Shown one piece after another: positions 10,094 to 16,532 of a stretch of DNA of 24,989 nt. The stretch lies in IMG/VR virus record IMGVR_UViG_3300035181_000109, positions 1 to 24,989 of that record; one strand, 5' to 3'. The translations under genes and the position numbers were made by a program. How positions within the stretch are numbered: position 1 is the stretch's first letter; each line of letters opens with the position of its first letter. This stretch comes from a virus. The notes under the pieces were generated by a model. It saw nothing but the letters and a program-made list of their open reading frames with translations, did no database searches and was not told the origin of the DNA.

Positions 10094-10420
10094 ATGGCGG
10101 CATACCCGACACTACCGACCAGCTTCGGATCCGATCCGCAGAACGCCACGAAGTTGCTGGTTGACCGCGCCGAGGACGGCACCGCACGGGTGCGCAGTTA
10201 CGCCAACGACAAGTCTAGCTTCAAGATTTCTCACCCTTACCTGGACTCGGTCGGCAAGGGAACGCTGGATGCGTTCTATGCATCCAACCGCCTGCTGCCG
10301 TTTAGTTACACCAGCGCGGCAGATGGCGCGACCAGGACTTGCGTTTTTTCCGCCAGGCCGACATACAAATTTGAGCCGGGCGGTTACTACACGGCTACCG
10401 TCATGATGGAGGAGGTATGA
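10094..10420 (+). CDS. Small minor tail protein, lambda gpM-like size and position
   Basis: 108 residues. The ATG directly follows the TAA of the previous gene. It contains a beta-rich layout with RVRSYANDKSSFKISHPYL, then a helix TLDAFYASNRLLPFSYT and final strands ending TATVMMEEV. This is the pattern of small tail-tip proteins in which a deviation from F-x-W/F-x-P segments is common. The similarity to gpM is suggestive rather than proven. It overlaps the tip protein gene by ATGA, so the two are probably translated together. Confidence 0.6.
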   Translation: MAAYPTLPTSFGSDPQNATKLLVDRAEDGTARVRSYANDKSSFKISHPYLDSVGKGTLDAFYASNRLLPFSYTSAADGATRTCVFSARPTYKFEPGGYYTATVMMEEV

Positions 10421-12990
10421 GTTACACGCCGCCGCCAAACGGCCAGCCGTACCTTCCCGGCGTGTCGTGGACAACGTCGTCGTCAAGCCCGGTTGCCGCG
10501 CTCTCCACGCTCAACGCAGTCGCCAGCACCGCATCGGACACGCAGGCGCAATGCGCCGCCGAGAATGCGCCGCTGCCGATCATCTATGGCCGTGTCTATA
10601 CCGGCGCGCTAGTGGCCGATTGGCTGACGTACCAGAATGACCTGATTATGGTGCTGATCTGGGGTGAGGGCGAGATAAACACTATTGAAACCATCACCGA
10701 GAGCGACAACGCGCTCCCGGCTGGAATCACGATAACCAACTACAACGGCACGGCAGGGCAGACAGCGGATGCAACGCTGATTGCCGCCTATGCTTCGCAC
10801 GGCATCACCTATGCCGACGCGCTCCCAGGTATCGCCTACACCGTGGCCAGGATCAAGGCAGACGCTACCAGCGGATTCCCGACTTTCAAGGCCATCATCC
10901 AGGGCCGGAAACTCTACGATCCGCGCACCGGGCTGACGGCCTACTCGGACAACCCCGCGCTGGCACTTGCCGATTTCCTCACCTCGACGGTGTATGGTAT
11001 GGGCAAAACGGTGGATTCATCCAGCCTAACTGCTGCCGCGAACTTCTGCGACGAGCTTTGCGGCACCGAGAAGCGCCGCATCATCGGACTGGTACTGGAT
11101 CAAACAAACCCATGCACGCAATGGCTCGAAGCGTTGCGCACTTATGCCGGGTGTTTTATTAGCCAGGAAGGATCGAATTATCGCTTGATTCCTGACAAGC
11201 CCGGCATATCTGTTTTTAGTTTTACCGCTTCCAACATCGTCGCCAATTCGCTCAAACTCAAGAAGCGAGGATTGCAGCAAATCCCAACAGTGATCGACAT
11301 GCGCTATACAGACACCAGCGTTTTGCCGTGGGCTGAGAAATCGGCTTTTGCAAAAGCATCAGGTGTAGACGCCGGAACTACCCCGCGCCGCGATTCGCAG
11401 GTAAGCCTTCCGGGGATCACGCGATATAGCCAGGCCATGCGCGAGTCAATCGAGCGCCTGAACAAGCTCACCTTGTCAGACTTGTCAGCAGATTTCACAG
11501 CATTCGACGAAGCGCTGAAATTGCAGGTAGGCGACATTGTTGACATCACTCACCCCATCGGGCTGACTGCAAAACTCATGCGCGTCATGTCCGCAAAGAT
11601 TGCAGACGCTGGGCGCTGGCAGATTTCCGCGATTGAATACGATCCCGCCGCTTATTCCGATGTCGTCTCATCCAGCCCTACTTATGCAGACACCACGCTT
11701 CCCGATCCGGCAGCGCCACCCGCCATTACCGGCATTGTATCTGCGGAGGAAGTCTATCAGCTCGAAAATGGCACATATTCCTCGCGCATCAAAACAACGT
11801 GGGATGCCGTAACCTATCCCTACCTGGAGAGTTACCGCATCGAAGTCTACCAAGCCGGTGCACTGATAGATACAGCAAGTACGTTATCGCCAATCTACCG
11901 CACCGCGGCAGTTAAGGAGGGCGTTGAATACGTTGTCAAGGTCGCCGCTATAACCACTATCGGTTCTGTTGGATCATGGGCGCAGGCCAATATCACCCCG
12001 CTAGGAAAATATCTCATCCCCGGAAACGTGCCGAGCGTTGCGGCGTTTGAGGCTGGCGGGCGTGTCTATGTCTCATGGGCGCCGGCAGTTGACATCGACA
12101 TCTGGCGCTATGAAGTGCGCTATGGAGCAATCGGTGTTGCATGGGCATCCGCATTGCTTATTGATCGTGTTGACGCCTTGCGCCTTACGTCAGATCAGAT
12201 ACCTGTTGGCACATGGACGATCCACGTCAATGCGCTGGATTCTGTGGGGCAGTATAGTGCCACCGCCGCCACCGCAAATGTCACCGTCACCAGCGACGCA
12301 GCAGCTTTTCTGGTTGCCAGCTATGACCAGACCAATCCGACACTGACCAACATGGCGAGTTATACGATCAATCCGACAGACCGGAATAGTTACACAGTAA
12401 CGGAGGATGGCGTGCTGGCAGCAACCAAGTTCCCGAACACGGCAAGCACCTACGGAAACATTGCAGCTACTTACCACAACAGCGTGACAAGCACATGGCT
12501 TGGCGAGGTGGAGGACTTCGGCCTGGTGCTCGGTGGACAGTGGACAGGGACGGCGACGGTTGCCGATATTTCTGGCTCGCATATCAGCTATCTTGGCAAT
12601 TCGACCGATAATTCGACATGGAGTTATCCCGCCGGGCTAAGCCAGAAACTCAATGCCAGATTCGCCCGGATGAAGCATGAATCTCTAACCACCAGCACAC
12701 TAAAAGTCACGATGCCAACTCAGAATATCCGAGTAGACGCCATCCCCCGCGAAGAAGTAGGAACCGGCACCAGCAGCGCATCCGGCCCGGTAACGATCAC
12801 GCTGGCGAATCAATATGTCGCGGCGAAAAAGATCACCATCACCCCGCAGGGAACAACCGCAAGATCGGCTACCTACGACAACATCGTCATCGGTGGGGGC
12901 GCAGGAGCAACAACTTTTGATGTTTACGTTTTCGACCAAACCGGGGCAAGAATTGCCTCACCGTTCCGCTACGAATGGCAAGGAGTTTAA
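10417..12990 (+). CDS. Tail-tip hub / host-specificity protein with FN3 domains (gpJ-like)
   Basis: 857 residues. The start ATG 10417 overlaps the previous stop (ATGA) and is preceded by GGAGGAGG. Residues 1 to about 430 form the hub part, including NAPLPIIYGRVYTGALVADW, KAIIQGRKLYDPRTGLTAYS and NPALALADFLTSTVYGMG, which is the core seen in phage tail proteins related to gpJ. Residues about 434-530 and 534-627 look like two fibronectin type III domains (TTWDAVTYPYLESYRIEVY; VYVSWAPAVDIDIWRYEVRY). The C-terminal 230 residues are beta-rich with a possible carbohydrate-binding fold. It should sit at the tail tip and contact the host receptor. It is shorter than lambda gpJ. Confidence 0.85.
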   Translation: MSYTPPPNGQPYLPGVSWTTSSSSPVAALSTLNAVASTASDTQAQCAAENAPLPIIYGRVYTGALVADWLTYQNDLIMVLIWGEGEINTIETITESDNALPAGITITNYNGTAGQTADATLIAAYASHGITYADALPGIAYTVARIKADATSGFPTFKAIIQGRKLYDPRTGLTAYSDNPALALADFLTSTVYGMGKTVDSSSLTAAANFCDELCGTEKRRIIGLVLDQTNPCTQWLEALRTYAGCFISQEGSNYRLIPDKPGISVFSFTASNIVANSLKLKKRGLQQIPTVIDMRYTDTSVLPWAEKSAFAKASGVDAGTTPRRDSQVSLPGITRYSQAMRESIERLNKLTLSDLSADFTAFDEALKLQVGDIVDITHPIGLTAKLMRVMSAKIADAGRWQISAIEYDPAAYSDVVSSSPTYADTTLPDPAAPPAITGIVSAEEVYQLENGTYSSRIKTTWDAVTYPYLESYRIEVYQAGALIDTASTLSPIYRTAAVKEGVEYVVKVAAITTIGSVGSWAQANITPLGKYLIPGNVPSVAAFEAGGRVYVSWAPAVDIDIWRYEVRYGAIGVAWASALLIDRVDALRLTSDQIPVGTWTIHVNALDSVGQYSATAATANVTVTSDAAAFLVASYDQTNPTLTNMASYTINPTDRNSYTVTEDGVLAATKFPNTASTYGNIAATYHNSVTSTWLGEVEDFGLVLGGQWTGTATVADISGSHISYLGNSTDNSTWSYPAGLSQKLNARFARMKHESLTTSTLKVTMPTQNIRVDAIPREEVGTGTSSASGPVTITLANQYVAAKKITITPQGTTARSATYDNIVIGGGAGATTFDVYVFDQTGARIASPFRYEWQGV

Positions 12991-13359
12991 ATGGCATACG
13001 TTTTATTTGATCCCACCACCCCAGATGCCACCGCCCAGACGCTCACGCAGATGGGGCAATCCGAGCGCAACAACCTTAAGGCGGTGCGCGATGCCTGCAT
13101 CATGGGCGGGGGGTTCTACGGCTTCAGCCTAGCCGTATCCGGCGGCACGGCAGACCAGCCCGCACTGCTCACCTACACGAAAGGCACGGAGCAGATAAAG
13201 GCCGCACTGACGTGGGGTACAACGGGAGGAGCATCCGGGAGTGTCACTGTGGCGGTTTACAGCTACTCGGCAGACTCCGGCAGCACGTGGGCAACGATCG
13301 GCACAAAGACAATTACCTATGATGCTAACGCAAACGTAACATCAACAGCATGGTCGTGA
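12991..13359 (+). CDS. Small tail-tip-associated protein, unknown
   Basis: 122 residues, starting directly after the TAA of the tip protein with AAGGAG upstream. The N-terminal half is mixed (MGQSERNNLKAVRDACIMGG), and the C-terminal half is a beta-rich domain with a SADSGSTWATIGTKTITYD segment. I do not recognise a named family. Similar small proteins follow the tip protein in related phages, so a structural or tip-accessory role is inferred. The end of the gene is 2 bases from the HNH remnant start ATG at 13362. Confidence 0.6.
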   Translation: MAYVLFDPTTPDATAQTLTQMGQSERNNLKAVRDACIMGGGFYGFSLAVSGGTADQPALLTYTKGTEQIKAALTWGTTGGASGSVTVAVYSYSADSGSTWATIGTKTITYDANANVTSTAWS

Positions 13360-13361
13360 CG

Positions 13362-13403
13362 ATGAAATGCTCAGTTCCATAATGTGACAGGGATAGCTCA
13401 AAC
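13362..13403 (+). pseudogene. Upstream in-frame remnant of the HNH gene, cut by TAA at 13380
   Basis: ATG 13362 reads MKCSVP, then TAA (13380-13382), then CDRDSSN in the same frame, continuing into the HNH ORF. Across the stop the pattern is C-x4-C-x10-C-x2-H, which parallels the intact second finger (C-x4-C-x9-C-x2-H) further on. The stop occupies the fourth x of the first C-x4-C. This is good evidence that the original gene began at 13362 and acquired a nonsense change. Confidence 0.7.
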
Positions 13404-13877
13404 GTGAGTGGTCTTTGTGATACACATAGAACCTACAAATCTATGGGGCGCGAATTAAAGAAGCTAAAGCCGTTGCAACTTAGAAAACAGCAAACGGGTA
13501 TTTGTTCGTTTGACGGTTGCGGCAAGCCTTCTCGAGCACACAACCTTTGCAACAGTCATTACGCGCAAAAACGGGCTGGCGTTGATCTCCGACCTGTCAG
13601 GGATTTTGGCAACCCATCAGGATCAATAAATAGCGACGGATACAGGGTATTCAGAGATCCTGGAAATAAGCAGTACCTAGAGCATAGAAAAGTGATGGAA
13701 GACCATTTAGGAAGAAAACTCCACGCCCATGAAAACGTGCATCACATCAACGGAATAAAAGATGACAACAGACTTGAAAACTTAGAGTTGTGGTCAACCA
13801 AACAACCAAAAGGCCAGCGCGTTGAAGACAAAGTGAAGTGGGCGCTGGAAATTGTAGAACTTTATGGAGTTAAATAA
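13404..13877 (+). CDS. HNH homing-type endonuclease, N-terminal zinc finger incomplete
   Basis: 157 residues from GTG 13404, the first plausible start after the TAA at 13380, with AGGGA about 10 bases before. It keeps the second half of zinc finger 1 (C-DT-H), an intact finger 2 (CSFDGCGKPSRAHNLCNSH), a GSINSDGYRVFRD strand segment, and the HNH core NVHHINGIKDDNRLENLELW. This is the phage free-standing HNH type that nicks DNA and spreads its own gene. It is A/T-richer than its neighbours (43% GC in bases 13681-13740 against 63% in 13141-13200, counted by eye), a sign of transfer. Its 3' end supplies a GGAG site for the next gene, whose ATG overlaps its TAA. Confidence 0.85.
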   Translation: MSGLCDTHRTYKSMGRELKKLKPLQLRKQQTGICSFDGCGKPSRAHNLCNSHYAQKRAGVDLRPVRDFGNPSGSINSDGYRVFRDPGNKQYLEHRKVMEDHLGRKLHAHENVHHINGIKDDNRLENLELWSTKQPKGQRVEDKVKWALEIVELYGVK

Positions 13878-14338
13878 TGATTGATTTTTTACTCGGCGTG
13901 CCGGGAAAACTTAAAACCATCAGCGATTTGCTGACGACCTACTGGACAGCAGCACGAGCGGCGAAACTGGATTATCTGACTGGCAATGTCGCCCTAGCAT
14001 CAACGGCGGTGAGTAATGCCGATTATACGTCTACGAGGGCTACGTTTTTAGACAGCACCATTAGCGGACGACTTGGATCGATTAAAGCGATTTATAAAGG
14101 GACAGTTACAATTAACAATTCTTCGCAAAGCGGCACAGTGACAATTACGTCCGTTAATACAGCAAAGTCTTTGTGTTTTTTTATGGGATGGATGTACATA
14201 TCAGGGGGTGGGAATGTCCCAACTGGTAATGATTATCCGCGTATTGAGTTAACCGATTCAACAACCGTTACAGCTACAAGGGGCGCGGTTACGACCACGA
14301 GCATAGCCGTAGGCTATATTGTTGTGGAGTTCAATTGA
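13877..14338 (+). CDS. Small tail-fibre-like protein
   Basis: 153 residues. ATG 13877 overlaps the HNH stop (TAATG), with GGAG at 13866-13869 inside the HNH gene. The N-terminal helix IDFLLGVPGKLKTISDLLTT and the TYWTAARAAKLDYLTGNVA segment, then NADYTSTRATFLDSTISGRL, resemble the repeats found in phage fibre or stalk proteins. The C-terminal part is a beta-rich domain. A virion fibre or tip role is inferred from position and composition. Confidence 0.62.
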   Translation: MIDFLLGVPGKLKTISDLLTTYWTAARAAKLDYLTGNVALASTAVSNADYTSTRATFLDSTISGRLGSIKAIYKGTVTINNSSQSGTVTITSVNTAKSLCFFMGWMYISGGGNVPTGNDYPRIELTDSTTVTATRGAVTTTSIAVGYIVVEFN

Positions 14339-14862
14339 TGCGTTATCAAATTCTCCAATCCGGCGGTGTATTCGATTTCGAAACCAGAACAATCGTTCTC
14401 CCGGATCAATCTAGCGATTCTTGGAGGGCATACCAGGCATGGTTGACGGCAGGTAATAGTCCACTGCCGCCAGATACCATCGGGCAAGATACTCTTGCCG
14501 TTGCAATCGAAAAAAGAAAGTCAGAAATCGACTCATATGCTGCCGGATTACGCAATGCGGTAATCCGTGGCTACAGCTCGGCGGAACTCTCAAGCTGGAG
14601 TCTGAAACTGATTGAGGCACGTGCATATACGGCAACAAGCGATATTAACCAGGCCCCGTTGCTCAATGCTACCGCACAGGTGCGCGGTATCACAATCTCG
14701 GACATGGTTAATCGAGTGATGAATAATTCGGCGCAATTCCTGCATCTAGAGGCGACCATTGACGGTATTCGCGGAAAACACTGCGATGCTGTCGGCGCTA
14801 TGACAACAGTGCAGGACATCATCACTTACGACTGGCATTCCGGTTGGCCTGTTATCCCATAA
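14338..14862 (+). CDS. Tail-fibre assembly-like protein with DUF4376-type C-terminus
   Basis: 174 residues. ATG 14338 overlaps the previous TGA (TGATG) and has GGAG upstream. The in-frame TTG at 14335 is less likely. The N-terminus is a short beta region (MRYQILQSGGVFDFETR). The rest is helical, with EKRKSEIDSYAAGLRNAVI and a later GITISDMVNRVMNNSAQF and TTVQDIITYDWHSGWP, the layout of DUF4376 domains that end phage fibre-assembly proteins. It may act as a fibre chaperone or be part of the tip. Confidence 0.6.
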   Translation: MRYQILQSGGVFDFETRTIVLPDQSSDSWRAYQAWLTAGNSPLPPDTIGQDTLAVAIEKRKSEIDSYAAGLRNAVIRGYSSAELSSWSLKLIEARAYTATSDINQAPLLNATAQVRGITISDMVNRVMNNSAQFLHLEATIDGIRGKHCDAVGAMTTVQDIITYDWHSGWPVIP

Positions 14863-16187: not shown

Positions 16188-16532
16188 ATGGCGATACTTC
16201 GACGAATAGTTGACGCGGTAAAAGGCAAGGCTCCATTATCGGCTTCGCGATCGCCTAAATGGCCTGCCACAAGGAAAGCGCACCTGGCAGATTATCCGCA
16301 GTGTGAGGTTTGTGGCGGGACGAAAAGTCTCGAAGTGCATCACATTCTCCCTTTTCATCTGCACCCGGATCTTGAATTAGCCGATAACAATCTAATCACG
16401 TTGTGCGAATCGGATGAGAACGGAGTCAACTGCCATCTGTTCTTTGGGCATTTGGGCGATTTTCACAGTTACAACTGTTCGGTTATATCCGACTCTCCGC
16501 TGTGGCGTGAAAAATTGAGGAATCGGCCATGA
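16188..16532 (+). CDS. HNH endonuclease within lysis region
   Basis: 114 residues. ATG 16188 has AGAGG upstream. A basic N-terminus precedes a zinc-type Cys pair (CEVCGG), the HNH core EVHHILPFHLHPDLELADNN and LITLC, and a second cluster CESDENGVNCHLFFGHLGDF. The protein resembles small phage HNH nucleases. Those encoded next to terminase genes can help packaging, but this one is amid lysis genes, so its role is unclear. The stop overlaps the next gene by ATGA, so it is built into the operon rather than loosely inserted. Confidence 0.82.
   Translation: MAILRRIVDAVKGKAPLSASRSPKWPATRKAHLADYPQCEVCGGTKSLEVHHILPFHLHPDLELADNNLITLCESDENGVNCHLFFGHLGDFHSYNCSVISDSPLWREKLRNRP

Follow-up and report, generated by a model that had tools for sequence, protein, structure and literature searches.

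Free-standing HNH genes that lie between phage genes, and whose sites are empty in related phages, are known from T4 and others (PMC2988022). Such genes do not always remain functional: I-TevIII of T4 is inactive through a large deletion, while the copy in phage RB3 works (PMC2988022). An HNH endonuclease with zinc fingers was found hidden in the ShiLan insertion in mycobacteriophage methylases (PMC11855218), and nuclease genes near tail operons have been described together with changes in their DNA-binding repeats (PMC10448857). The locus considered here lies in a window of 24,989 bases (the whole stretch of DNA analysed) from one virus record, a single metagenome contig. The locus is probably a recently acquired, free-standing HNH homing-type gene with a recent nonsense lesion, which has left it newly broken or newly shortened. 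The features of the locus are collected in the table.

Features of the HNH locus and its neighbours (window positions)
Feature	Position	Strand	Remarks
Upstream gene, 122 aa, intact	12991..13359	+	without match in Pfam or PHROG; last codons TCG TGA, two bases ahead of ATG 13362
Inserted DNA, ~505 nt	13360..13864		missing from all 12 relatives found with the locus
Remnant leader of the HNH gene, ATG AAA TGC TCA GTT CCA TAA (MKCSVP*)	13362..13382	+	
Interrupted finger 1, C-x4-C-x10-C-x2-H	13368..13427	+	profile score; read-through model pLDDT ~92
In-frame TAA	13380..13382	+	residue preceding second Cys of finger 1
Remaining open frame, HNH endonuclease, 157 codons + stop	13404..13877	+	starts GTG 13404, then ATG 13443
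Intact finger 2, CSFDGCGKPSRAHNLCNSH	13503..13559	+	
HNH_3 domain (PF13392)	13680..13802	+	conserved residues present
GGAG, Shine-Dalgarno-like site of downstream gene	13866..13869	+	within last HNH codons; also in several empty sites
Downstream gene, 153 aa	13877..14338	+	no Pfam or PHROG match; ATG overlaps HNH stop by one base (TAATG)

The original prediction had placed an ATG at 13362-13364 in the frame of the HNH gene and an in-frame TAA at 13380-13382 inside the first C-x4-C of a zinc finger. Both are there. Translation from the ATG gives MKCSVP*CDRDSSNVSGLCDTH... and, over a longer stretch, MKCSVP*CDRDSSNVSGLCDTHRTYKSMGRELKKLKPLQLRKQQTGICSFDGC..., and apart from this TAA the frame stays open as far as its terminal TAA at 13875-13877. 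The internal stop stands in place of the residue immediately ahead of the second Cys (Cys codons at 13368 and 13383). Coming after six codons, it would block the full-length product of the ancestral frame, which we infer from relatives of the gene. GTG 13404 is merely the first in-frame start codon past this stop. It follows 21 bases later, with a weak and distant Shine-Dalgarno-like AGGG whose predicted strength is equalled at about 19% of window positions, and it leaves the second half of finger 1, GLC-x2-H (13410-13427), on its 3′ side. ATG 13443 is likewise in frame and has no predicted Shine-Dalgarno. The ribosome site of ATG 13362 is itself weak on its own.

A finger reading frame lies on both sides of the stop. 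We built a profile from 57 distinct C-x4-C...C-x2-H fingers of relatives, leaving the window's own second finger out of the control. The broken finger scored 20.2 bits with the 14 residues preceding GTG 13404 (the stop taken as X) and 6.9 bits without them. As a control, 49,596 other 42-nt stretches of the window, from both strands, were joined to the same downstream residues, and just one scored as well or better in register. Since only that one stretch scores as high, the match lies beyond chance, and judged by this profile the 42 nt ahead of GTG 13404 are real finger remnants. When the stop was replaced by an arbitrarily chosen residue, AlphaFold modelled finger 1 with a pLDDT of ~92, against ~90 for finger 2. 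No useful match to the broken finger emerged when its sequence was compared with solved structures. The spacing between the second and third Cys of finger 1 (13383-13427) is ten, a value seen in few relatives; nine prevails in the family.

The rest of the gene is in good order. Its predicted architecture has two C-x4-C...C-x2-H fingers ahead of an HNH_3 domain, and the match to Pfam HNH_3 (PF13392) reaches 36.6 bits, above the cut-off of 24.8. Finger 2 is intact and places the gene among the phage HNH genes with at least one such finger before the HNH domain. The 157-residue remainder also matches several PHROG HNH families. The best solved fold is that of I-HmuI, an HNH homing enzyme, although the match is weak (E 0.1). 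Past the stop, the open reading frame departs from the family in one of 40 conserved columns and keeps the other 39; relatives depart in 0 to 8. When the short product was modelled, pLDDT came to 84-93 in finger 2 and the HNH core and to 51-70 in the first 20-30 residues. The window also holds a second, unrelated HNH gene, which is intact (16188-16532; Pfam HNH, PF01844; 114 aa).

Relatives in viral contigs and phage records carry one, two or three such fingers before the same core. Two- and three-finger members such as L010, L026, L034, Weasels2 and Zitch open with a Met at most three residues from the first Cys, as is the case for ATG 13362. Starts of the form M-x(0-3)-C-x4-C with an uninterrupted finger 1 thus exist, as the original prediction anticipated. 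None of the relatives examined starts by default at the place of the GTG, and none has a stop within a finger. Together, the finger profile and these intact relatives support the proposal that 13362, or a position close to it, was once the start of a gene with a whole finger 1. One-finger members are also common (L003, L006, L009, L070 and others).

No close copy of the gene was found in the viral contigs or in the bacterial and archaeal genomes searched, collections that may leave out sequences very close to the window. No viral contig contained this DNA when the stop position was allowed to be any codon, and a second DNA pattern gave one match, in an unrelated contig (L064) that has no HNH match. 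The scan of bacterial and archaeal genomes confirmed no relative; the plasmid search returned four distant matches.

The annotated starts of several family members lie late (Zitch, Cece, Pan2, Comrade and a Streptomyces plasmid), which suggested a stop recurring across the family. We rejected this idea: in all of these the DNA is open through all fingers, so the annotated starts are in most cases simply late. They fall inside open frames at 684-969 of Gordonia phage Zitch (L065), 774-885 of Microbacterium phage Cece (L073), 651-1167 of Pan2 (L068) and 651-1014 of the Streptomyces plasmid (L074). These four HNH genes are probably longer than annotated, with one or more complete fingers omitted. 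Two further contigs, compared at L027:2430-2440 and L009:2475-2607, are alike except for one base over ~5.2 kb and a ~131-base deletion in L027 that takes away the HNH gene start and the finger. This may be a second natural finger loss in the family or an assembly artefact.

The gene sits in the tail region, downstream of a gene resembling that of the central tail fibre J (10417-12990). Scanning with the two neighbour genes found 12 contigs that carry the locus, and in all 12 the neighbours adjoin, with 3 to 30 bases between them. The upstream gene is 73-93% identical over its whole length in nine related contigs. In most relatives the downstream gene keeps its first 50-75 residues, and the remainder has diverged. 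Among the empty-site relatives, L059/L060 comes closest: upstream of the HNH gene it shares 92.6% identity over 2,964 nt, and the match breaks off at the gene's left edge. Some of the empty sites have the sequence TGGTCGTGA|TGGAGATAAGCAATG (L052) or TGGAGTTAATAAATG (L061). Most simply, the insertion would lie between TGA 13359 and TGGAG 13865. On the right, its boundary may shift by a few bases, since TGGAG/GGAGTTAA occurs in empty sites too. Read in this way, the insertion leaves the stop of the upstream gene and the GGAG of the downstream gene in place, and the last HNH codons and the HNH stop derive from the target site. The G+C content falls from ~0.55 to 0.44 over the insertion and stays low for several hundred bases past it, so composition alone cannot mark the edges.

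The records of the empty-site relatives hold no copy of the HNH gene elsewhere. One weak 27-residue match was seen there, and a check for a finger-bearing frame gave no confirmation. An intron-borne HNH gene was ruled out, as an Rfam search over 12800-14400 (E up to 1) matched neither a group I intron nor any other RNA family. With no RNA family covering the locus and both neighbours whole, neither a self-splicing intron nor an intein carries the gene. It is free-standing: it is intergenic, and its site is empty in 12 of 12 relatives. These features make it a putative homing endonuclease gene of the free-standing kind, and recent acquisition followed by a recent lesion is the best reading of its history.

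The course of events can be pictured as follows. The HNH gene entered between two tail-region genes and harmed neither. In its ancestral state it was probably translated from ATG 13362 by ribosomes that had just finished the upstream gene, two bases away. The codon at 13380 would later have mutated to a stop, which ends the product after six residues and removes the first half of finger 1. The full-length protein would no longer be made, and starts at GTG 13404 or ATG 13443 may yield low levels of a shorter protein that comprises finger 2 and the HNH core. As read from the sequence, either product would resemble a normal one-finger member of the family. Loss of finger 1 need not kill the enzyme, because members with one finger are common.

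This raises the question of whether the truncation is tolerated or even useful, with reinitiation at GTG 13404 (or a start at ATG 13443) yielding a working one-finger enzyme, perhaps with another target range. The natural one-finger relatives are in keeping with this, as are the AGGG ahead of the GTG, the conserved remaining frame and the good fold predicted for finger 2 and the HNH core without finger 1; such enzymes are reported to shift in specificity when the number of their fingers or repeats changes (PMC10448857). Against it, the signal at the GTG is weak and distant, half a finger is left in front, and a conserved remainder is equally expected after a recent lesion, so that conservation does not discriminate. 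We consider a tolerated truncation rather unlikely. A stronger version holds that the stop is kept by selection, the six-codon leader being coupled to the upstream gene, so that only a little nuclease is made, in a one-finger form with a changed target range. This is improbable; if true, such enzymes could acquire a new specificity through a nonsense codon with reinitiation, at the price of a finger. The stop might instead come from faulty sequencing or assembly, or the consensus of this metagenome contig may have picked up a minority variant. There is one record only, and the lesion is one codon in an otherwise intact gene; however, no further sign of base errors was noted, and the neighbours are open with normal overlaps. 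An error is unlikely as well, slightly more so than a tolerated truncation.

Two other explanations have far less in their favour. The original prediction allowed that the TAA may be read by a suppressor, and readthrough, by a suppressor tRNA or a changed code, would indeed give the full protein, as the frame is otherwise open on either side of TAA 13380. This suggestion found no support. About ten genes of the window end in TAA, the HNH gene included, and no tRNA gene occurs in the window, which is itself a fragment. No relative examined has a stop at that position, and a T follows the TAA, which in E. coli makes an efficient terminator. Within the window we thus find TAA neither reassigned nor suppressed, and readthrough is highly improbable. 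The gene could also have always begun at 13404 or 13443, the upstream finger match being a coincidence. The weak ribosome site at 13404 and the existence of one-finger relatives agree with an originally short gene, but the in-register half-finger match recurs so rarely in the control stretches, and a leftover GLC-x2-H would be so purposeless, that we give this explanation hardly any weight; the present relatives speak against it too. We retain the reading of a recently acquired gene that has since suffered a nonsense lesion, itself recent.

On that reading, the locus is a snapshot of the known life cycle of homing-type genes: one phage carries the gene, close relatives show the exact site empty, and damage at an early stage is confined to a single DNA-binding module. 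The variation from one to three fingers makes this family convenient for asking whether finger loss kills or retargets the enzyme.

The comparison with described systems places the gene among its kind. Like the T4 mob genes (PMC2988022), it is intergenic, belongs to no intron, joins an HNH domain to a DNA-binding module and has an empty site in relatives. This putative homing gene differs from them in its N-terminal C-x4-C...C-x2-H fingers and its broken start region. With I-TevIII it shares a lesion in a homing HNH gene while related working genes exist; there the damage is a large deletion in an intron gene, whereas here it is a single nonsense codon in a free-standing one. As in ShiLan, a fingered HNH gene fills a precise insertion, starting close to its left border and ending in TAA at the right one. 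The ShiLan insertion, in contrast, lies inside a gene and in another reading frame, while the present gene stands between genes and is interrupted in its own start region. The closest in make-up are the HNH proteins of the actinophages Zitch, Weasels2, Cece, Comrade and Neville and that of Pan2, which share the finger type, the HNH_3 core and the C-terminal region, with 36-56% identity over the matched parts; these have one to three fingers, all uninterrupted. The present gene adds a further member to this known kind, one hit early by a nonsense lesion. For mobile genes of this sort that is an ordinary stage, and it indicates no new mechanism.
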